Of a DNA stretch of 36,747 nucleotides, positions 22,153 through 35,918 are shown piece by piece. The notes beneath the pieces are model-generated. The model ran no database searches, was not told the DNA's origin, and worked only from the letters and a program-made list of their open reading frames with translations. Source of the DNA: Rhodospirillales bacterium (lineage in GTDB: Bacteria; Pseudomonadota; Alphaproteobacteria; JAJFIK01); contig JAJFIK010000052.1 in assembly GCA_021775005.1 (NCBI GenBank), positions 1 through 36,747 on the forward strand. The letters run 5' to 3'. The position numbers and the translations under genes were made by a program. How positions within the stretch are numbered: position 1 is the first letter of the stretch; the number at the start of each line of letters is the position of its first letter.

Positions 22153-24834
22153 TCACGCGGCAGACTTGGAGGCTTTGCGCGGATCGTAATTGAGGTTCGG
22201 CGCAAGCCATTTCTCGGCGAATGCCACCTCCCAGCCTTTGCGCGCGGCATAATCCTCCACTTGGTCGCGCTCAATTTTGCCGACGCCAAAATACTGCGCA
22301 TCCGGGTGTGAAAAATAAAATCCCGAAACCGCAGCGCCTGGCTGCATGGCAAAGCTTTCCGTCAGGGTGATGCCTGCTTGGTTGTCCGCGTCCAACACTT
22401 GCCACAGTAGCGCCTTTTCCGTGTGGTCGGGGGAAGCGGGATAGCCCGGCGCGGGGCGGATGCCGCGATAGGTTTCGCCGATGAGCTCGACGCTAGAAAG
22501 CGCCTCCTTGCTGGCGTAGGCCCAAAATTCTTTGCGCACACGCTCATGCATGCGTTCTGCGAAGGCCTCGGCAAATCGGTCTGCCAATGCTTTGAACATG
22601 ATCGCTGAGTAATCGTCGTGGTCGGCCTCAAATGCCGCCATGGTGTTGGCTTCACCCTCCCCTGCCGTAACGGCAAAGCCGCCAACATAATCCTTGAGAC
22701 CGCTCTCAATAGGGGCAAGGAAATCCGCAAGGGCAAAGTTCGCGCGCTCGCGGGCACCGCTGCGCGCCATCTGCTGGCGCAAGGAATGCATCACCAGGCG
22801 CACTTCTTCGCGGGCATCATCGGCGTAGATTTCCCAATCGTCATCACCAATGGAGTTAGCCGGGAAAAATCCAATCACTGCGCGGGGTGCCAAAAGCTTT
22901 TCATCAATGATCCGCTTTAACATCTCCTGCGCGTCTTCAAACAGGGACCGCGCGGCCTCGCCTACTTTTTCATCCTTTAGAATTCGCGGGTACTGGCCGA
23001 TAAGTTCCCATGAGGCAAAAAACGGCGTCCAATCAATGTAATCCGCTAATTCCGCGAGATCATAAGTCTCAAACCTCTTGAGCCCCAAGAAGGTCGGCTT
23101 GGGCGGCGTGTATCCGGCCCAATTGATCTTGAATTTATTGGCCCGCGCCTCGGCAATGGTCGCGCGGGGTTTTTTTGAATTGGTATTGGCATAACGCGCT
23201 GCCATGTCGGTGTACTCAGAGCGCACTTTGCTGGCATAGGCCTCGCGCATTTCCTTGGATAGCAAATTTGACGTGACACTCACGGCCCGCGATGCATCAG
23301 GCACGTAAACGGTTTGCCCGCTGGCATAGTTCGGGTTGATCTTTACCGCCGTGTGCATCTTGCTGGTGGTGGCCCCGCCAATAAGCAGCGGCAGCTTGAG
23401 CCCTTGCCGTTCCATTTCGCTGGCCAGGTGCACCATCTCATCAAGGGACGGGGTAATGAGCCCTGAAAGGCCAATGACATCCACCTCTTCCTTGACGGCA
23501 GTGTCCAAAATCTTTTGCGGCGGCACCATGACCCCAAGGTCAATCACCTCAAAGCCATTGCATTGCAGTACCACGCCGACGATGTTTTTGCCGATGTCAT
23601 GAACATCGCCTTTGACCGTGGCGAGCAATATCTTGCCAGCTTTCTGGTATTCGCCGCTTTCCTCCATCTCCGCTTCCATGAACGGCGTAAGATGCGCCAC
23701 GGCGCGTTTCATAACCCGCGCTGACTTCACCACTTGCGGCAGGAACATTTTGCCTTCGCCAAAAAGGTCACCCACCACATTCATGCCGTCCATAAGCGGG
23801 CCTTCGATGACATGAAGCGGGCGACCAAGGGTGAGCCGCGCTTCTTCGGCGTCCTCCACGATGAAATCGGCAATGCCGCGCACCAGAGAATAAGTCAGGC
23901 GTTCAGCCACCGGCTTCTCGCGCCAGGTGAGGTCTTCCTTGCGCTCAATACCTTTCCCGCCTTTGAATTTTTCTGCGGCTTCAAGCAACCGCTCGGTCCC
24001 ATCATCGCGGCGATTAAGGATGACATCCTCAACCCGCTCCCGCAGTTCCGGTTCAATATCCTCATAGACCGCCAGCTGGCCTGCGTTGACGATGCCCATA
24101 TCCATCCCCGCCTTGATGGCGTGATAGAGAAACACCGAGTGCATGGCTTCGCGTACTGGATTGTTACCGCGGAAGGAAAACGAGATATTTGACACCCCGC
24201 CAGAGACGAAAGCATGGGGCAGTTCCGCCTTGATGCGCTTTATCGCCTCAATAAAATCAACCGCGTAATTATTGTGTTCCTCAATGCCCGTCGCCACCGC
24301 AAATATATTGGGGTCGAAGATCATTTCTTCGGGGGCGAGAACGCCTTTTGCAATAAGGAGGTCATAGGACCGCTTGCAGATCTCAAACTTGCGCGCCACC
24401 GTGTCGGCCTGGCCTTGTTCATCGAACGCCATGATAACGGTGGCCGCACCATAACGTTGCACTTTGCGCGCTTGTTCAAGAAAAAGGTCTTCACCTTCTT
24501 TCAAGCTAATGGAATTGACGATGGCTTTGCCCTGCACACACTTAAGCCCCGCTTCAATCACTGACCACTTTGAAGAGTCAATCATGATGGGAACACGAGC
24601 GATGTCGGGTTCCGCCGCAATGAGATTGAGGAACATGACCATGGCTTGCTCGGAATCGAGCATGCCTTCATCCATATTCACGTCGATAATCTGCGCGCCG
24701 TTTTCTACCTGTTGACGCGCCACAATCAGCGCCGCATCAAAGTCGCCCCCAACGATAAGTTTCTTGAATGCCGCCGAGCCGGTGACATTGGTGCGCTCAC
24801 CAATGTTTATAAAATTAGTTCTAAATTTCGTCAT
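22153..24834 (-). CDS. metH: Methionine synthase MetH, folate/B12/activation subunit
   Basis: The C-terminal three quarters of cobalamin-dependent methionine synthase as a separate 893-residue protein. The pterin-binding domain (1-290) has [12 protein letters not shown] and ASSTQ-type [12 protein letters not shown]. The four-helix cap spans about 310-395. The B12 domain carries [11 protein letters not shown] at 410-420, with His412 as the lower cobalt ligand. The SAM activation domain covers about 560-893 and has [12 protein letters not shown] near 793. Methyl groups pass from methyl-tetrahydrofolate to cob(I)alamin to homocysteine bound on the neighbouring subunit. The ATG at 24834 overlaps the upstream homocysteine-domain gene by ATGA. 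Such a split is known in other alphaproteobacteria, so it is not a frameshift error. Confidence 0.96.
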
Positions 24835-25907
24835 GCCACCGCCGTAAAGGGTTCCAGCCCCGAAAGGCGCAACGCAGGGTCTTCAGATTGCATAGGGCGC
24901 GCGCCGAGACCTTCAACAGCGTTGACAATGGCGCGAATGTGCTCCGGCGTGGTGCCGCAACACCCGCCAACAATGTTCACAAGACCATCTCGCGCCCACT
25001 CGACAATAAAGGCGGCAGTTTCCTCAGGCGTTTCATCATACTCCCCCATCTCATTGGGCAATCCCGCATTGGGGAATGCTGCCACCAGCGTATCGGCGTG
25101 GCGGGCAATGTCTGCCAGCGCGGGCCGTAAGTCGCGCGCACCGAAGGAGCAATTAACCCCGATAGAGAACGGCTTGGTGTGGCGCATGGAATGCCAAAAG
25201 GCCTCCATAGTTTGGCCTGACAAATTACGCCCCGACAAATCTGTGATGGTGCCCGAAACCATGACCGGTATTTCAAAGCCCAGATCGTCACCCAATGCAG
25301 CAATACCAAAAAGCGCCGCTTTGGCGTTCAGCGTGTCGAAAATCGTCTCGACGATCAGCGCGTCCACGCCGCCCTCCAGCAAAGCCCGGGATTGCTCGGC
25401 ATAGGCTGCCGCCAGTTCATCGAAACTCACATTGCGAAAACCGGGGTTGTTTACATCCGGCGAAAGCGATGCGGTGCGGTTGGTGGGGCCAAGGGAGCCG
25501 ATGACGTAACGCGGACGATGCGGTGTTTTGGCCGTCCACTCATCTGCCGCCTTGCGCGCAATTTCTGCCGAGACGCGATTGAACTCTGGTACCAGATGCT
25601 CCGTGCCGTAATCGGCCTGGCTGATAGAGGTGCCATTGAACGTATTGGTCTCAATAATGTCCGCCCCCGCTTCCAAAAAGGCATCATGGATTTCGCGAAT
25701 GATGTCAGGTTGCGTGAGGGCAAGGATGTCGTTATTACCGCGCAGATCAAAATTGTGAGCTTTGAGACGATCACCGCGAAAATCCGCCTCGCTCAACTTA
25801 TAACGCTGCACCATGGTGCCGCCGGCACCGTCCATAACCACGATACGCTTGAGGGCCTCTTGGTGGAGAGCCGCTATGCGCTTGGTGCGTGTTTCAAGAT
25901 CGACCAT
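24831..25907 (-). CDS. metH: Methionine synthase, homocysteine-binding (zinc) subunit
   Basis: The N-terminal homocysteine methyltransferase module as a stand-alone protein of 358 residues. It is a TIM barrel beginning [21 protein letters not shown]. The zinc ligands are Cys253 ([11 protein letters not shown]) and Cys316-Cys317 ([11 protein letters not shown]), which bind and activate the homocysteine thiol. It overlaps the folate/B12 subunit by 4 bp, so the two chains are likely made in equal amounts and act together. AAGGAAG precedes the ATG. It could also be called a betaine-homocysteine methyltransferase-like protein in isolation, but the neighbour settles the role. Confidence 0.95.
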
Positions 25908-25918
25908 CTGGCGCTTCC

Positions 25919-26794
25919 TTATGCTGCCGCGTTCGCTGCTTCAGGCCGAAGCCCGAGCAAATGACACACCGCGTAACTCAACCCAGCGCGGTTGAGAGTG
26001 TAGAAATGAAAGTCGCTGACGCCCCCCGATTGCAACTTTTCAACCAGTTCGGCCGCCACAGTTGCCGCAACCAATCTGTGTGTCTCGGGGTCGTTCTCAA
26101 GACCAATGAATTTGTCATTGAGCGCTTTGGGGATGGCCGCGCCGCAAGCATCTGCAATTTGATGAATGCGGGTATAATTGAGAATCGGCATAATGCCCGG
26201 CACAATGGGGATGGTGATCCCGGCCGCCCGCACCCGCTCAAGAAACTCAAAATAAATTTCCGCGTCAAAAAAGAACTGCGTGATGGCCCGCGTGGCCCCC
26301 GCATCGACTTTTGCTTTGAGTAAATCGAGATCAAAATCTGCGCTGACGCTTTCGGGGTGTTTTTCCGGATAGCAGCCGACAGAAACCTCAAAGTCATGCA
26401 ACTTCTTCAGGCCCGCCGCCAGTTCCGCCGCGGCGTAGTAGCCATCGGTACGCGGCTCATAAGCACCGCCCATGCCGCCGGGGGGATCACCGCGCAGGGC
26501 CACCACGTGGCGGACCCCGGCACTCCAATAATCTCGCGCGACTTGATCGATCTCAACGCTAGAGGCATCCACGCAAGTCAAATGCGCTGCAGGGCGCAAC
26601 TTGGTTTCTTGCACCAAGCGTTTGACGGTGCGGTGGGTGCGCTCCCGCGTTGATCCGCCCGCGCCATAGGTCACAGATACGAACTCCGGACCCAGCGGGG
26701 CCAGGCGAGCGATTGAATTCCACAAGGTTTCTTCCGTAGCTTTTGTTTTGGGCGGGAAGAACTCAAAGGATACAGAGATACCGTTCTGCGTCAC
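25919..26794 (-). CDS. metF: MetF, 5,10-methylenetetrahydrofolate reductase
   Basis: A flavoprotein that reduces methylene-tetrahydrofolate to methyl-tetrahydrofolate, the methyl donor for MetH encoded just downstream. It is 291 residues, with SFEFFPPKTKATEETLW at the start, then SVTYGAGGSTRERT, HLTCVDAS, ALRGDPPGG, GCYPEKHPES and TQFFFDAEIYFEF, all typical of the TIM-barrel FAD enzyme. The longest frame starts at 26848 inside the regulator gene. I prefer the GTG at 26794, which makes a GTGA overlap with that gene's stop and has GGGAGG 5 bases upstream. Confidence 0.95.
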   Translation of the reverse strand: MTQNGISVSFEFFPPKTKATEETLWNSIARLAPLGPEFVSVTYGAGGSTRERTHRTVKRLVQETKLRPAAHLTCVDASSVEIDQVARDYWSAGVRHVVALRGDPPGGMGGAYEPRTDGYYAAAELAAGLKKLHDFEVSVGCYPEKHPESVSADFDLDLLKAKVDAGATRAITQFFFDAEIYFEFLERVRAAGITIPIVPGIMPILNYTRIHQIADACGAAIPKALNDKFIGLENDPETHRLVAATVAAELVEKLQSGGVSDFHFYTLNRAGLSYAVCHLLGLRPEAANAAA

Positions 26795-27792
26795 GCCGCC
26801 CTCCCGGAAGACGACCGATTGGCAACGCCGGCGCGGCCCAACAGCCAAAGCGAAACAGTCAATTTTTGATTGCCTGTGTGTTCCGGCTTCAAATGACGTG
26901 CGCGCAATACATCAAGGCCAGGGGCCCGGGCCCAGGTTTCGATCTCATCATCAGTAAACCCAAGGCGGCGGTGCTGATGTTCCTCACGCAAGAATTCAAG
27001 TTGATGCGGCGCAAAGTCCACAATCAACAACCGCCCGCCCGGCGCGAGAATGCGACCCGCTTCGCGAATGGCTGTGGCTGGATCATCAAGATAATGCAGC
27101 ACCTGATGCACCGTGACGAGGTCCGCGCTTTGCTCATCAAAGGGCAGCGCAAAAAGATCCCCCCGCCGCACCTGACAATGGGACAGTCCCGCCTTGTCCA
27201 GCGCTGCACGTGCCAGCAACAACATGTCCTGGCTCAAGTCGATGCCATCGCCCCGCGCGGCGCGTTGACCAATAATTTCCAGCACCCGGCCCGTGCCCGT
27301 GCCAATGTCCACAAGGTGGTCAAAGTCGCCGGGCCCGATAAGCTCCAGCATGGCGGTTTCCACATCAGCTTCCGGCAGATGCAGAGCGCGGATCCGATCC
27401 CAGTCTTTAGCGTTGGCTTTAAAATAGGCGGCGGCTTGTTGGGCGCGCTGCTGGCGAACATGGTCAAGACGACGCAAGTCTTGGAGATATGAAGGATCAT
27501 CACCAGGCACAAAGGCCACCAGAACTGCGGCAAGCTCAGCTACGCGGACCGCATCAGCGTCGCGTGCACGCGCTGGATCCGCGAGGCGGTAAAATACCCA
27601 TGCCCCCTCGCGAAACCGATCAATCAGGCCCGCTTCAGCAAGCAATTTCAAATGGCGACTGACCCGGGGCTGGCTTTGCGCCAGAACCATAGTGATCTCG
27701 CTGACCGTGAGCTCCGACTGACCCAATACCGCCAAAAGGCGCAATCGAGATGGTTCCGCTGCCGCGCGAAGGGCAGAAAGGACCGTATCCAT
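26791..27792 (-). CDS. SahR-like ArsR-family regulator fused to a SAM-dependent methyltransferase domain
   Basis: A 333-residue protein with an ArsR winged helix (about 5-75: AAAEPSRLRLLAVL, SEITMVLAQSQPRVSRHLKLL) and a class I methyltransferase domain (motif I DIGTGTGRVLEI at 162-173, GDLFALPF, VHQVLHYLDDP). Fusions of this kind head methionine-cycle operons in alphaproteobacteria. SahR, an ArsR-family regulator responding to S-adenosylhomocysteine, is the likely functional class. The methyltransferase domain may serve as the ligand sensor or be a true enzyme; I cannot tell. The ATG at 27792 has GGAGG 5 bases upstream. A frame extending to 27939 would begin upstream of the operator-like dyads and is rejected. 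Confidence 0.88.
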   Translation of the reverse strand: MDTVLSALRAAAEPSRLRLLAVLGQSELTVSEITMVLAQSQPRVSRHLKLLAEAGLIDRFREGAWVFYRLADPARARDADAVRVAELAAVLVAFVPGDDPSYLQDLRRLDHVRQQRAQQAAAYFKANAKDWDRIRALHLPEADVETAMLELIGPGDFDHLVDIGTGTGRVLEIIGQRAARGDGIDLSQDMLLLARAALDKAGLSHCQVRRGDLFALPFDEQSADLVTVHQVLHYLDDPATAIREAGRILAPGGRLLIVDFAPHQLEFLREEHQHRRLGFTDDEIETWARAPGLDVLRARHLKPEHTGNQKLTVSLWLLGRAGVANRSSSGRAA

Positions 27793-27816
27793 GAATTCCT
27801 CCAAGAAATTTGGCGG

Positions 27817-27851
27817 ATATAAACATATCTTTATGTGCTTATCTAGAGATA
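27817..27851. promoter_or_regulatory. Two dyads, candidate operators of the met operon
   Basis: An AT-rich inverted repeat, ATAAA-c-ATAT-c-TTTAT (27819-27834), is followed 5 bp later by TATCT-AG-AGATA (27840-27851). Both lie just upstream of the regulator's ribosome site, in a much more AT-rich patch than the surroundings. Their size and symmetry suit an ArsR-family dimer, and autoregulation by the SahR-like protein is the natural reading. The dyads are observed; the binding is inferred. Confidence 0.6.
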
Positions 27852-28113
27852 TTTGCCCCTGCGCGGCGACAATCAAGCAACAGGCGGCAAAAAGCCTGCG
27901 TTTTAGCGCCGCCGTCGCTAGTGGGTCGCCGTGCCCCATGGTACAAATGAGCTAGGAAATAGTTAACCATGTCGTGCAATTCAGCCGCTTGGGGTGTGTT
28001 GATGCGCACAATTGCCCCGTATCGATGCCCTTTTTCCGGGCGTGGCATCTAAGCATGAGATAAGTTCGTAACTAGATACGGCTATACCGTATTTGGTGGT
28101 GGGAGTGGGGTGT
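27852..28113. other. Divergent intergenic region between the met operon and mlaA
   Basis: About 260 bp with no supported gene. On the plus side it contains a perfect dyad, ATACGG-CTATA-CCGTAT (28076-28092), just upstream of the mlaA ribosome site, and a short GCCC-TTTTTCC-GGGC hairpin near 28028-28042. Either could be regulatory, but no known regulator motif is recognised. I found no SAM-II-type riboswitch on the met side. Confidence 0.5.
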
Positions 28114-30834: not shown

Positions 30835-32505
30835 TTAGTCGCGCGTGAAGCGTTTGAACTTGATGCGGTGGGGCTGATCTGCCTCTGCCCCCAAGCGGCG
30901 TTTCTTGTCCGCCTCATAGGCTTCATAATTACCTTCAAACCATTCCACGTGGCTGTCGCCTTCAAAAGCGAGGATGTGGGTCGCGATGCGATCAAGAAAC
31001 CAGCGGTCATGGCTGATAATAACGGCGCACCCGGCGAACATATCAAGGGCGTCTTCCAACGCGCGCAAGGTTTCCACATCAAGATCGTTGGTCGGCTCAT
31101 CAAGCAGCAGAACATTCGCGCCGGACTTCAGCATCTTGGCAAGGTGGACGCGGTTGCGCTCCCCACCGGAAAGCTGACCCACCTTCTTTTGCTGATCACC
31201 ACCTTTAAAGTTAAACGCCCCCACATAGGCGCGGCTGGGCATGGTGCGCTTACCAAGCTCAATAACATCCTGGCCATCTGAGATTTCTTCCCAAACGTTT
31301 TTCTTGGGGTCGAGGTCGTCGCGGGACTGGTCCACGTATCCCACCACCGCGGTTTCACCCAACCGAAGTGTTCCCTCATCGGGCGTTTCCTGATCCGTCA
31401 ACATACGAAACAAGGTTGTCTTCCCTGCCCCGTTAGGACCGACAACCCCGACGATACCGCCCGGCGGCAATTTAAAATCAAGCCCGTCGATGAGCAGTTG
31501 ATCACCAAAGCCTTTTTTAAGGCCCTCAGCTTCAATCACCACTTGCCCAAGGCGCGGGCCGGCGGGGATGACGATCTGCGCGCGACCCACGCGCGCGCCG
31601 GTGTCTTGATTGAGCAGTTCCTCATAGGACTTGATGCGCGCTTTGGATTTCGCCTGCCGCGCCCGAGGAGACGCTTTTACCCATTCAAGTTCTGATTTGA
31701 GTTCGCGCTGGCGGGCATCCTCTGAGCGGCCTTCAGCCTCAAGGCGTTTTTGCTTTTGCTCAAGCCAGGCCGAGTAATTTCCTTCATAAGGAATGCCCTC
31801 GCCGCGATCGAGCTCCAATATCCAGCCCGTTGCGTTGTCGAGGAAATAGCGGTCGTGGGTCACAAGAACCACGGCACCTTTGTAGTCCACCAAAAACTTC
31901 TCCAACCAAGCGACAGATTCCGCATCCAGGTGGTTGGTGGGCTCATCAAGCAAAAGCAGGTCTGGTTTTGCCAACAGCAAGCGGCAAAGGGCAACGCGGC
32001 GACGCTCCCCCCCTGAAAGCGAGGCAACTTCAGCGTCTCCCGCCGGGCAGCGCAAGGCATCCATCGCCATCTCAACGCGGCTGTCGATATCCCACGCATC
32101 AACGGCATCAATTTTTTCCTGCAGCGCCGACATTTCTTCCATCAGCTCATCGGAATAGTCATCCGCGAGTTTCAACGAGACCTCGTTGAACTTGTCTACT
32201 ATCGCTTTGGTTTCCGCGACGCCTTCCATGACATTGCCAAGAACATCTTTCGAGGCATCAAGTTCGGGCTCCTGCGCCAGGTAGCCAACGCGCGCGCCTT
32301 CGGCAGGCCAGGCTTCGCCGACGAACTCTTTGTCGAGCCCCGCCATGATCTTCAAAAGCGTGGACTTGCCCGAGCCATTCACCCCCACAACGCCAATTTT
32401 AGCATCGGGATAAAAGCTCAAATTGATGTTGTTGAGGATCTGTTTTCCGCCTGGAAATGTCTTCGACAGGCCATCCATATGAAAAATGTATTGGTAGTTC
32501 GCCAT
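30835..32505 (-). CDS. ettA: EttA, energy-dependent translational throttle protein (ABC-F ATPase)
   Basis: A cytoplasmic ABC-F protein that binds the ribosomal E site and gates the first elongation steps according to the ATP/ADP ratio. The 556 residues match EttA length. Two ATPase domains are seen: Walker [10 protein letters not shown] and GPNGAGKTT, signatures [10 protein letters not shown] and [10 protein letters not shown], and Walker [13 protein letters not shown] and [12 protein letters not shown]. Between them lies the charged linker region ([20 protein letters not shown]). The opening [15 protein letters not shown] and the arm between the first Walker A and signature are EttA-like. 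No transmembrane segments are present. Confidence 0.95.
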
Positions 32506-32638: not shown

Positions 32639-32667
32639 TTGGGAAAAACGCAGGTTTTCGGTACAAT
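32639..32667 (+). promoter_or_regulatory. Promoter of the acidic repeat-protein gene
   Basis: TTGGGA (32639-32644), a spacer of exactly 17 bp and TACAAT (32662-32667) form a good housekeeping-type promoter about 60 bp before the gene. AGGGGG lies 8 bases before the ATG at 32725. The other part of the 219-bp gap from ettA shows nothing further. Confidence 0.65.
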
Positions 32668-32724
32668 CGGGTTCGTTTCGTGCGGCCCAGTGGGCTGAGG
32701 AGACATAACTAGGGGGACTAACTA

Positions 32725-33108
32725 ATGGGTAGAATAGCATTCTTTATTCTGCTGGTGCTCGTGATCGTGGCTGGCGCCTGGTATTTCATGGGCGGTAGCA
32801 GCGAAACGACAGACGATGCGGGCACAGCGGTCGAGGATACCGCGGATGACATGATGGATGACGCAGACGACATGATGGACGATGCTGCCGACGACATGAT
32901 GGACGATCCTGACGCCATGACGGACGGCAGCGAAGACGCAGCTGAAGACATGGGCGACGAGGCCATGGATGATCCTGACGCCATGACGGACGAAGGCGAG
33001 ACCATGATGGATGAAGGCGAAACCATGATGGACGAAAGCGGAACCATGACTGAGGATGCCGTGGACGCAACAGTTGAGGAAACTGAAGAACCAGAAACGA
33101 CTCAATAG
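32725..33108 (+). CDS. Membrane-anchored Asp/Met/Glu-rich repeat protein of unknown function
   Basis: I do not recognise this 127-residue protein. Residues 4-22 form one hydrophobic helix (IAFFILLVLVIVAGAWYFM), after which the chain is almost entirely Asp, Glu, Met, Thr, Ala and Gly. There is no lysine or aromatic residue beyond the anchor. Tandem units include three copies of DDMMDDA/P (about 43-60), DPDAMTD twice and EGETMMDE twice. The topology suggests an anchor with a long, flexible, strongly negative tail outside the cytoplasm, which could bind cations or just be disordered. It has its own promoter, a good ribosome site and a terminator, so it is probably expressed. The opposite-strand frame of equal length is a mirror of the repeats. 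Confidence 0.8.
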   Translation: MGRIAFFILLVLVIVAGAWYFMGGSSETTDDAGTAVEDTADDMMDDADDMMDDAADDMMDDPDAMTDGSEDAAEDMGDEAMDDPDAMTDEGETMMDEGETMMDESGTMTEDAVDATVEETEEPETTQ

Positions 33109-33136: not shown

Positions 33137-33168
33137 GGCCCCGAGAGCGATTTCGGGGCCCGTTTTTT
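33137..33168 (+). terminator. Rho-independent terminator of the acidic repeat-protein gene
   Basis: GGCCCCGA (33137-33144) pairs perfectly with TCGGGGCC (33153-33160) around an 8-base loop. Six T residues follow at 33163-33168. It lies 29 bp after the stop codon. Confidence 0.85.
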
Positions 33169-33190: not shown

Positions 33191-33450
33191 ATGACGTTTT
33201 CTGACTACGGCACTATCGCGGAACTTTTCTCAGCCTTTGCCATTATCATCACCCCGATCTATGGGATCGCGCAACTGCGCATCAACAACCGCCGCGCGCG
33301 TGTTGAACTGACATCGCAGCTCGGGATGGGTCTGCACACATCCTAGATTGAACTTGGCAAAGACCCTGAGATCGCAAGGGTTTGCTCGGCACGTGGACAA
33401 GTATCTCAAGGCTGCGACCGCCGACCCCCAAGAACTAGCGGCGGTAAGCT
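33191..33450 (+). pseudogene. Decayed small membrane-protein gene
   Basis: An ATG at 33191 opens MTFSDYGTIAELFSAFAIIITP then IYGIAQLRINNRRARVELTSQ, which resembles the N-terminal helix and QIRxNxRA motif of a common family of small proteobacterial proteins with one transmembrane segment. The frame stops at TAG (33344-33346) after 51 codons. Related sequence continues past the stop (IELGKDPEIARV), then shifts frame to HVDKYLKAATADPQELAAVS (ending about 33450), echoing the DP-x-EL pattern seen downstream in that family. I read this as a remnant with a nonsense change and a frameshift. A real 51-residue peptide is the alternative. Confidence 0.5.
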
Positions 33451-33467: not shown

Positions 33468-34253
33468 TTAGTCCCCTTCTCCGATGCCGCACTGCTCAAG
33501 AAAATCAACAGGGATTTGCGCCGCCTTTCGTGCCACCAGTGCGAAGTAGTGAAGCGGCAAGCCCTCCATCGACAGCCGGTGCCGGTAGCGTTCCAGATGA
33601 TGAATGTCGATGTATTTTGAGAATATCAACTCCCGAATGAATCGAGAGAACCCGGAATCGTCTGTGCGGTCCAGAAATGAGTCTTTGATGTTGAAGGCAA
33701 GCCAACCCCCATCGGCAATCATACGCATGGCGGGCAGGAAGGCTTGCGGCGGAATATCGCCAAAGCCCAAGGCCGCGACAGAGGTCAGGCAATTGAATGA
33801 CCAGTTATCCAGCGCCTCACCGTCGGCCTGCGGCAAGTTGGAAAAATCGGAAACATAGTATTCGTCATAAAGCCCGGGCCGGTCCCGATCTGCGGCCATC
33901 TTGGCCTCGGGGATAATGTCCGCACCAACCATTCGGGCGACAGCGTGCACCTTCAGCTCCTCCCCCATGACGCCATTTCCCGCGCCCAGATCGAGCACGC
34001 GAAGCTCGGATATATTCTCCCCTTCCGCGTCCAATGCGGACTTCAGGATTTGCGTCACCTTGCGCGGCGAAGAACACTTCAGACGGTCATAGAAAATTTG
34101 CTCATAGAGGCCAGGGCGATTGTAGATCTCACAATAATCGTGAAATCGGAGGCGGGTGCGTTTGCCCTCTTCTGTGACGAAAAAATAGGCTTCGTCCTGC
34201 CCCAAATCATGGCCACCGGCCGGCGGAAATTGAATGCGATGAATTTGTTTCAT
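33468..34253 (-). CDS. Class I SAM-dependent methyltransferase of unknown substrate
   Basis: A soluble protein of 261 residues with the SAM-binding motif LRVLDLGAGNGVMGEEL at about 84-100, then VGADIIPEAKMAADRDRP (motif II region) and FNCLTSVAALGFGDIPP. The N-terminal part (DEAYFFVTEEGKRTRLRFHDYCEIY) is distinctive but I do not recognise its family. No target-recognition domain is visible, so the substrate is unknown. The longest frame starts at 34304; the ATG at 34253, preceded by AGAAGGA, gives a more natural N terminus. It stands alone, convergent with the pseudogene. Confidence 0.8.
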   Translation of the reverse strand: MKQIHRIQFPPAGGHDLGQDEAYFFVTEEGKRTRLRFHDYCEIYNRPGLYEQIFYDRLKCSSPRKVTQILKSALDAEGENISELRVLDLGAGNGVMGEELKVHAVARMVGADIIPEAKMAADRDRPGLYDEYYVSDFSNLPQADGEALDNWSFNCLTSVAALGFGDIPPQAFLPAMRMIADGGWLAFNIKDSFLDRTDDSGFSRFIRELIFSKYIDIHHLERYRHRLSMEGLPLHYFALVARKAAQIPVDFLEQCGIGEGD

Positions 34254-34405
34254 TGGTCCTTCTAGTTGTTGAGGATTTTTCCTGGCATGAGCCATAACCC
34301 GCACCCCGCGCGGGCATTGGTGGTCTTCTAACTGATTGCTGCGATGATTTGAAGGAATGCGGGGAAATTAGCGCAAATGAGCGTGCCGAACGGCAATTTG
34401 GACCG

Positions 34406-34885
34406 TCAATTGGCAAATGTCTCTTTGATAATCCGCTCCAGCCACTCTTTGTCGGTGGCGTCGAACGCCGCGAACTCAGTTGAATCCACATCAAAGACGG
34501 CGATGAGCTCACCCGCCCCGTTCATAACCGGCACCACAATCTCAGAGTTGGATGCCGCGTCGCACGGAATATGCCCCGGGAACGCATGCACATCATCAAC
34601 AACTTGAGTTTGCCTGGTGGCGGCTGCCGTGCCGCAAACACCGCGTCCAAAGGCAATGCGCATACAGCCCAATGAGCCTTGATAGGGACCGACCACAAGC
34701 TCGCCCTTTTTGTCTGGGTCAACCATGTAAAACCCGGTCCAGAAGTAACTTTCAAATGCGCCGGCGAGAAGAGTGTTCACCGTCGCCATGCGCGCGATGA
34801 GGTTCGGTTCACCTTCCAGCACCGCGGCGATTTCCTTGGCGGCGTTCTCATAGGCGGCAGCTTTTTCCTGGGCGCAAAGGAACAT
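34406..34885 (-). CDS. msrC: Free methionine-(R)-sulfoxide reductase (GAF-domain fRMsr)
   Basis: A 159-residue single GAF-domain enzyme that reduces free L-methionine-(R)-sulfoxide, part of oxidative-damage repair. Diagnostic blocks are GPYQGSLGC, GRGVCGTAA and VDDVHAFPGHIPCDAASNSEIVVPV. The three redox cysteines are Cys74, Cys84 and Cys108, spaced like Cys84, Cys94 and Cys118 of the E. coli enzyme, so the enzyme should be active. The ATG at 34885 has no clear ribosome site. A 152-bp gap separates it from the methyltransferase start. Confidence 0.93.
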   Translation of the reverse strand: MFLCAQEKAAAYENAAKEIAAVLEGEPNLIARMATVNTLLAGAFESYFWTGFYMVDPDKKGELVVGPYQGSLGCMRIAFGRGVCGTAAATRQTQVVDDVHAFPGHIPCDAASNSEIVVPVMNGAGELIAVFDVDSTEFAAFDATDKEWLERIIKETFAN

Positions 34886-34932: not shown

Positions 34933-35706
34933 TCACACCAGAAAATCGCTGTGCACGTAGCCGGTCTTTGAGCCATCGCTTCCCAACTGGATAAGAAACC
35001 ACGGGTCGCGGCGCCTTATGAGCACGACCTTCTGGCCCAGCTTTAAGGGCCCCCATTCCAGCTTTTCATACTCAACGCCGGGCCCACCGCGCACATTGAG
35101 CGTGGTCGCTTTGACTTGCCAGTTCAGATCATCGCCATTGTCAAACGGCTTTAAAAGATATGTTGCGGCGGCATCAATTTGCGCCCGTGCAAGACCGTTC
35201 TTGTGGGCGTGGGCAGCCTGGGCATCTCGCGCATTGCTGCCAAAAAAGGGTTCGGTAATGATGGATGGTTTCGGGCCCATTTGCACGAGGCTTTGGTAGC
35301 CTCGGCCGCCGCTGGCCTCGTTCGGTGTTTTTATGCCGCGATCCTTCAGCTCCAACGCACTAAGGGTGGCGGCATGGACGACCTGCGCAAAAGGCTTTGA
35401 TGGCGCGGAGACATAGAGTGTTTCGGTTCCGTTTGCCGCTGGCACATGGGCGTTAAAGTGAAGCTCAATGGTGGCATCGGCGCCCCATTCCTTCGCGCGG
35501 CCATAGGCGCCACGAACGCCGCCGGTATTGCGAAAAAAAATCTCGGCTTCGAATTTCGTGGCGGCGTAATCTTCCTTGGCGATGGCCACCATGCGTTCGG
35601 CCAGGTCGGTATTCCAATCGTATTCCTGTGCGCTGATGGGGGCGACGGCCTGCGCGCCTTTACTGCTTTTCATGTGCCCTACAACAATGCCAAGCCGTTT
35701 GCTCAT
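34933..35706 (-). CDS. N-acetylmuramoyl-L-alanine amidase (Amidase_3) with C-terminal SH3 domain
   Basis: A zinc peptidoglycan amidase of 257 residues. Likely metal ligands are His11 (VVGHMKSS), Glu28 (QEYDWN) and His83 (ELHFNAH), with catalytic Glu152 in IITEPFFGSN. A bacterial SH3-type domain covers about 197-257 (TTLNVRGGPGVEY, GYVHSDFLV) and probably binds the wall. No signal peptide or membrane segment is seen, which is odd for a wall enzyme and recalls phage endolysins. AAGGAG lies 7 bases before the ATG at 35706; a frame reaching 35904 has no such site. No phage genes lie nearby. Between it and the tRNA (35707-35918) I see no gene. Confidence 0.85.
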   Translation of the reverse strand: MSKRLGIVVGHMKSSKGAQAVAPISAQEYDWNTDLAERMVAIAKEDYAATKFEAEIFFRNTGGVRGAYGRAKEWGADATIELHFNAHVPAANGTETLYVSAPSKPFAQVVHAATLSALELKDRGIKTPNEASGGRGYQSLVQMGPKPSIITEPFFGSNARDAQAAHAHKNGLARAQIDAAATYLLKPFDNGDDLNWQVKATTLNVRGGPGVEYEKLEWGPLKLGQKVVLIRRRDPWFLIQLGSDGSKTGYVHSDFLV

Positions 35707-35918
35707 AAGACGTCTCCTTGCAGATTTGATTGGGAACCACGGGCGGGACGCAAAGACCACACGCATACCGATAAATGGGTGTGGACCTAGCGCGATGCTA
35801 GGGGGCAGCTTCAGGGCTGTAAAGATGGCGATTTGCGAAGAAAAGGTGGAGGAGAGAGGTGAAACCTCGAACCGGAACCCGCGCGATGGGTTGGTGGGCA
35901 GCATCGCGCAAGAAAAAA

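Follow-up and report, generated by a model that had tools for sequence, protein, structure and literature searches.

The stretch of DNA analysed here, called the window, spans 36,747 nucleotides of one contig from the 2.85-Mb draft assembly of a Rhodospirillales bacterium. Divergently from ettA, which encodes the ABC-F protein EttA, the window carries an open reading frame (ORF) for a small protein composed of an N-terminal membrane anchor and an acidic, methionine-rich tail (Table 1). The order of genes in the window is ettA, this ORF, an ORF fragment, a methyltransferase gene, a GAF-domain gene and an amidase gene. Elsewhere in the window, as read from ORF translations only, methionine synthase appears to be encoded by two genes, a cobalamin part (22153-24834) and a homocysteine methyltransferase part (24831-25907), and this split gene pair (22153-25907) is followed by a metF-like gene and then by an ArsR-methyltransferase fusion (26791-27939).

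Table 1. Features at the locus of the acidic repeat protein, in window coordinates
Feature	Position	Strand	Remarks
ettA (ABC-F EttA)	30835..32505	-	Divergent neighbour that fixes synteny
Promoter-like TTGGGA-17-TACAAT	32639..32667	+	Weak; 9/12 match, 0.8 sites expected by chance
Shine-Dalgarno-like AGGGGGA	32711..32717	+	7 nt before ATG; also found ahead of the S9 start in G001 and G002
ORF, single-anchor acidic/Met repeat protein, 127 aa	32725..33108	+	ATG start, translation
N-terminal membrane anchor MGRIAFFILLVLVIVAGAWYFM	32725..32790	+	Probably related to the G002 S9 peptidase anchor; AlphaFold helix 2-22
Polyanionic tail, 105 aa	32791..33105	+	44 D/E, 15 M by composition; low-confidence helices or disordered (AlphaFold)
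Degenerate tandem repeats, 21 bp / 7 aa, DDMMDDA and EGETMMD type	32835..33050	+	TRF, repeat search, codon shuffles
Intrinsic terminator, 10-bp stem GGCCCCGAGA/TTTCGGGGCC, then T-run	33137..33168	+	Hairpin 33137-33160
51-aa ORF fragment, MTFSDYGTIAELFSAFAIIITPIYGIAQLRINNRRARVEL...	33191..33346	+	In the segment where the peptidase body would be; no Pfam/NCBIfam match
Class I methyltransferase gene	33468..34304	-	Absent from both genus-mates
GAF-domain protein	34406..34885	-	A similar GAF gene follows S9 directly in G002
Amidase_3 / SH3 protein	34933..35904	-	Order as in G002

The tail that follows residue 22 consists largely of 28 Asp, 16 Glu, 15 Met, 14 Thr, 13 Ala and 8 Gly, and its 105 residues include no Lys, Arg or His and no Phe, Trp or Tyr, which bears out the initial annotation of a single helix followed by about 100 residues of Asp/Met/Glu repeats devoid of lysine and aromatic residues. 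The sole positive charge of the protein is Arg3, and the positive-inside rule therefore predicts a periplasmic tail. A single-sequence AlphaFold model (mean pLDDT 63) assigns moderate confidence to the anchor helix and low confidence to the helices of the tail, the latter being compatible with disorder. With one N-terminal helix, a low-complexity acidic repeat tail and no folded domain, the protein falls within the small anchored acidic repeat proteins, a loose class that has no profile model.

Flanking signals had been taken to mark the gene as a compact independent transcription unit, a view that was confirmed for its 3' end but not for its 5' end. The hairpin and T-run downstream of the ORF make, by their sequence, a convincing terminator, and a GC-rich hairpin with a T-run likewise lies 3' of the S9 stop codon in both genus-mates introduced below. 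The promoter with 17-bp spacing is at chance level, since the search returned one site upstream of the ORF against a mean of 0.8 in shuffled sequences. The openness of the frame says little about coding, because one antisense frame is also free of stops across the whole ORF and two other frames hold only one or two stops. Support for coding on the + strand comes instead from the ribosome-binding site and start, which appear conserved in the genus-mates. Differences among the repeat copies, which fall at third codon positions in 150 cases versus 70 and 118 at the other two, give a weak indication of coding constraint.

That the repeats are visible in the DNA itself was confirmed. TRF detected arrays with a 21-bp period, each of some 3 copies and with a match of 77-85%, and a repeat search found 7 in-register copies at spacings of 21, 24, 66, 21, 21 and 21. 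Self-identity at a lag of 21 reaches 0.55, compared with a mean of 0.42 and a maximum of 0.50 for the best lag in 5000 codon shuffles; since none of the 5000 attains the observed value, the repeats exceed what composition alone would give. Change in the length of this gene by duplication of units is plausible by analogy with the orthologous pair in G220 and G308 described below, whose products differ by 13 residues in whole codons.

Searches with the ORF retrieved no close homologs among 85,000 species genomes, no Pfam or NCBIfam profile above cut-off, including the S9 catalytic (alpha/beta-hydrolase) domain PF00326, and no convincing orthologue in 96 relatives, in which the weak matches are acidic low-complexity proteins; nor did a literature search yield anything on the protein or on isolate OFTM99. 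Two families of short exported-type repeat proteins with Met/Asp or heptad repeats resemble it in kind, namely the pentapeptide MXKDX repeat family (TIGR02953) and the Ag473 lipoprotein (NF047840), the latter built of heptad repeats. Both differ from it in having Lys-containing units or a lipobox, and neither model matches: the tail lacks Lys and the ORF gives no hit at the NCBIfam cut-off of 41 bits for TIGR02953, and the protein, having no Cys, lacks the lipobox Cys of Ag473-type lipoproteins.

The locus was compared with that of two genus-mates, G001 and G002, the other relatives searched sharing only the class. In both, the gene divergent from ettA encodes an S9-family peptidase (PF00326, E 2e-37 in G001; G001:C14:17441-19579 and G002:C41:5583-7682). 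The two peptidases are 76% identical and begin with a membrane anchor followed by an acidic linker (MQRLVLLIIVAAVIAAAYFYGPQFLGGDTQSGSGDMTAEDTMPADTMADDTMASDMDEA... in G001 and MGRGLAILVAILVIAGAIWLFVSGAQGPGGEQAADDAAMQDVEVAEAASGEAEAEEAP... in G002). The gene order is Amidase_3, GAF, S9 peptidase and ettA in G002, and ettA, S9, an oxidoreductase gene and GAF in G001, such that the ORF of the window occupies the position of the S9 gene in an order otherwise the same as in G002. In the window genome no orthologue of this S9 gene was found, only paralogues elsewhere with 27-31% identity. The gene of the window shares with the S9 genes its locus, orientation, ribosome-binding site, type of anchor, acidic linker and hairpin terminator after the stop codon, and its product differs from the peptidases in lacking the beta-propeller and the alpha/beta-hydrolase and in having a tail about twice as long and richer in Met. 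Accordingly, the description of the protein as undescribed stands as far as the absence of a Pfam or NCBIfam match goes, but the protein is not a free-standing novelty, as the peptidase of the genus-mates at this locus has a related anchor and linker. Beyond the genus, neither this gene nor an anchored S9 gene is found upstream of ettA among the genomes listed. Alignments with seven S9 homologues from other families start at query residue 57-63 in six and at residue 51 in the seventh, and several distant homologues begin with a signal peptide or short leader. Because these alignments largely begin after the anchor and linker, the two elements look like a trait of the window's genus.

Several lines of evidence indicate that the 5' end of the ORF is homologous to that of the S9 genes, which we regard as likely from the sequences, though not proven. 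In each of the three genomes, AGGGGGA lies just upstream of the start. The window and G002 also have ATGGGTAGA in common, letter for letter; it encodes Met-Gly-Arg, the Arg being specified by AGA, a rare codon that makes up 3 of the 286 Arg codons among the genes counted. Over the 100-nt start region, the score of the G002 start against the window is equalled or exceeded by only 4 of 1756 other gene starts, and that of the G001 start by 33 of 1756. The anchors of the window protein and the G002 peptidase align with a score of 54, whereas 144 unrelated N-terminal anchors score at most 43 against the window and 45 against the G002 anchor, and 3 of 2000 shuffles that retain MGR reach 54; the match to the G001 anchor is weaker, at 44 against a background maximum of 43. 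Relaxed tblastn aligns residues 1-58 of the G001 peptidase in frame with window positions 32725-32907 at an E of 0.013, a value obtained without composition correction. Filtered BLASTP of the ORF against the G001 protein is not significant (E 3.2), as expected for a match that is short, hydrophobic and of low complexity. The argument from the anchor is weakened by the ease with which short hydrophobic anchors resemble one another. Nevertheless, in its anchor, scoring above all 144, and in its common ribosome-binding site and start, the ORF agrees with the genus-specific anchor and acidic linker of the S9 peptidases, even though filtered BLASTP does not detect it.

Downstream of the ORF, in place of the peptidase body, relaxed tblastn recovered no S9 remnant, and this lack of any catalytic-domain trace counts against a descent from the S9 gene. 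An in-frame deletion retaining the C-terminus of the peptidase was rejected, as the last residues of the window protein are unlike S9 C-termini. As a separate observation, the ORF at 33191-33346 looks like the start of a broken gene for a small membrane protein.

The ORF, its repeats, its shared position and the missing peptidase are all directly seen in the sequences. The reading we favour, with a probability of about 0.55, is that the ORF represents the anchor-linker module of a lost membrane-anchored periplasmic S9 peptidase of the prolyl oligopeptidase type, its linker lengthened by in-frame 21-bp duplications. The beta-propeller and catalytic domains would have been lost in the window lineage, leaving the 5' end of the S9 gene with its ribosome-binding site, start, anchor and the first part of the acidic linker, and after lengthening of the linker, reading would now end at a stop codon and terminator of its own. 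If made, the protein would lie N-in/C-out in the inner membrane and extend a flexible tail of strong negative charge into the periplasm. The equivalent stretch in the sister species would only tether the enzyme to the membrane; in the window protein the tether would hold no cargo, and any role would at most be the generic one of a polyanion. Loss or fusion of a domain at one locus is an ordinary event, and while this instance is new, the kind of sequence is known in a loose sense.

Similar sequences are widespread. A DNA pattern for MM(D/E)D(A/D/E)..MM(D/E) matched at least 117 stretches in the species collection, with the motif in frame in at least 101 ORFs, counts that give no estimate of frequency as the search selected for the motif. 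Many of the motif ORFs listed carry it downstream of a signal peptide, lipobox or anchor, either as a linker to a folded domain, as in cupredoxin-like lipoproteins of Patescibacteria (judged by sequence), or as a short unattached tail; other matches listed are chance frames or cytosolic proteins. Exported or anchored proteins of Chloroflexi, Bacteroidota, Patescibacteria, Nitrosopumilaceae and others share the MMDD/MMED tandem repeats of the window protein, but they are usually joined to a folded domain or lipobox, and with sequences unrelated to it, convergence is probable. Thus, D/E-M-M repeats are met with in many phyla, where they recur as linkers or as short tails behind an anchor, and do not seem a special type of sequence. 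A comparable style is seen in the window's own genome, in which an FKBP-type lipoprotein (L068:1099-1767, G000:C44) has the D/M-rich linker ADDMMDDMAEETMAEP.

Closer in kind are free-standing Alphaproteobacteria proteins with a single N-terminal helix and DMMDDA-type acidic repeats, found in the genus (G001:C53/C68 and G002:C79) and in family f116 (G220, isolate M3011; G308; and G384). They show in-frame length differences between orthologues and differ from the window protein in having other anchors and loci, a unit often of 8 residues and more Ala and Gly. The protein of G001:C53, apparently from isolate OFTM99, is also encoded by record JAJFIL010000146.1. An anchored (DMMDDAAG)n gene has its array at the ends of both C53 (L063/L027) and C68 (L064/L003), a repeat that probably broke the G001 assembly there. 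The G002 gene (L098:3427-3906) encodes a related anchor, MRGFLYGLIIGALAAVGG, and an Ala/Asp/Met tail, and lies upstream of an ExbB/TonB-type operon. No orthologue of these G001 and G002 proteins was found by search of the window genome, and its ExbB-type locus (G000:C35) holds no acidic ORF. The G220 and G308 genes lie in the same gene order, and the anchors they encode are identical up to residue 26. Within the initial 33 codons the two genes differ by 7 synonymous changes, and nonsynonymous changes appear only from codon 27 onward. The pair, whose members are not orthologues of the window gene and serve as an analogy, shows that genes of this type can be under constraint and change in length by whole codons. 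A second short acidic Ala/Asp/Met repeat protein of G308 (L236:1405-1761, G308:C1) has a lipobox-like start, and similar small lipoproteins occur in G183 and G040 (L228, L237 and L231).

The main rival to an orphaned module is a dead stub, in which the peptidase was deleted and the remaining anchor-linker piece is neutral, open only since its repeats hold no stops. We consider this possible, if clearly less probable than the favoured reading: with the antisense frame open as well, an open frame costs nothing, the adjoining ORF is a short fragment without a family match and the promoter does not exceed chance, but the ribosome-binding site, start, anchor and terminator are all intact, and the third-position bias is a weak sign of constraint. 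Direction is a separate matter, as a short anchored acidic gene may have come first and gained the S9 peptidase by a later fusion in the G001 and G002 lineage. The homologous 5' ends fit this order equally well, and the outgroup S9 homologues, largely devoid of anchor and linker, imply that anchor and peptidase were joined at some time. EttA, 84% identical between the window and either genus-mate, speaks neither for nor against a basal position of the window species, and the replacing segment holds a methyltransferase gene absent from both mates, which favours replacement in the window lineage. We therefore infer loss rather than fusion and rate the latter as quite unlikely, noting that a genus sample of three genomes, all fragmented drafts, limits the call on direction and leaves a contig error possible.

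The free-standing anchored acidic proteins with other anchors in the genus (G001:C53 and G002:C79) tell against domain loss and make an independent origin possible, with the gene encoding a small envelope protein of its own, an anchor or lipobox with an Ala/Asp/Glu/Met repeat tail, and its likeness to the S9 anchor being a coincidence. The orthologous pair in f116 and short lipoproteins elsewhere (L107, L139, L209 and L212) lend this some weight. We judge it unlikely, as the locus, the sequence from ribosome-binding site to start and the best anchor score all point to the S9 gene of the genus, while other such proteins score 19-35. The initial annotation also proposed that clusters of acidic residues and methionine bind calcium, copper or another cation at the membrane surface. 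Polyanions in general bind divalent cations weakly, and the composition of the tail is suggestive, but several observations make this highly improbable and leave the claim unsupported: the G002 linker at the locus is acidic with a single Met, so that acid is kept in relatives and Met is not; the tail has neither His nor Cys; its Met pairs are adjacent or at least 5 apart, never MxM or MxxM, and the protein thus has neither these motifs nor the His/Met clusters of Met-rich copper-binding proteins; no neighbouring gene is obviously related to metals; and many unrelated proteins that are exported use similar repeats as linkers. As a recurrent type of exported linker, D/E-M-M repeats should not be taken for a metal site from composition alone.

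The history of the locus offers an explanation for an orphan repeat protein, as the sister species show the probable owner of its anchor and tail. A further step, which we hold to be improbable, is that domain loss left anchor and linker as a new gene under selection, its tail extended by unit duplication, and that such Alphaproteobacteria proteins arise repeatedly as periplasmic polyanions acting as charge or cation buffers. If under selection, the ORF would clearly exemplify how a linker can become a separate gene; otherwise, it would caution that acidic ORFs of low complexity remain free of stops in several of their frames and mimic genes.
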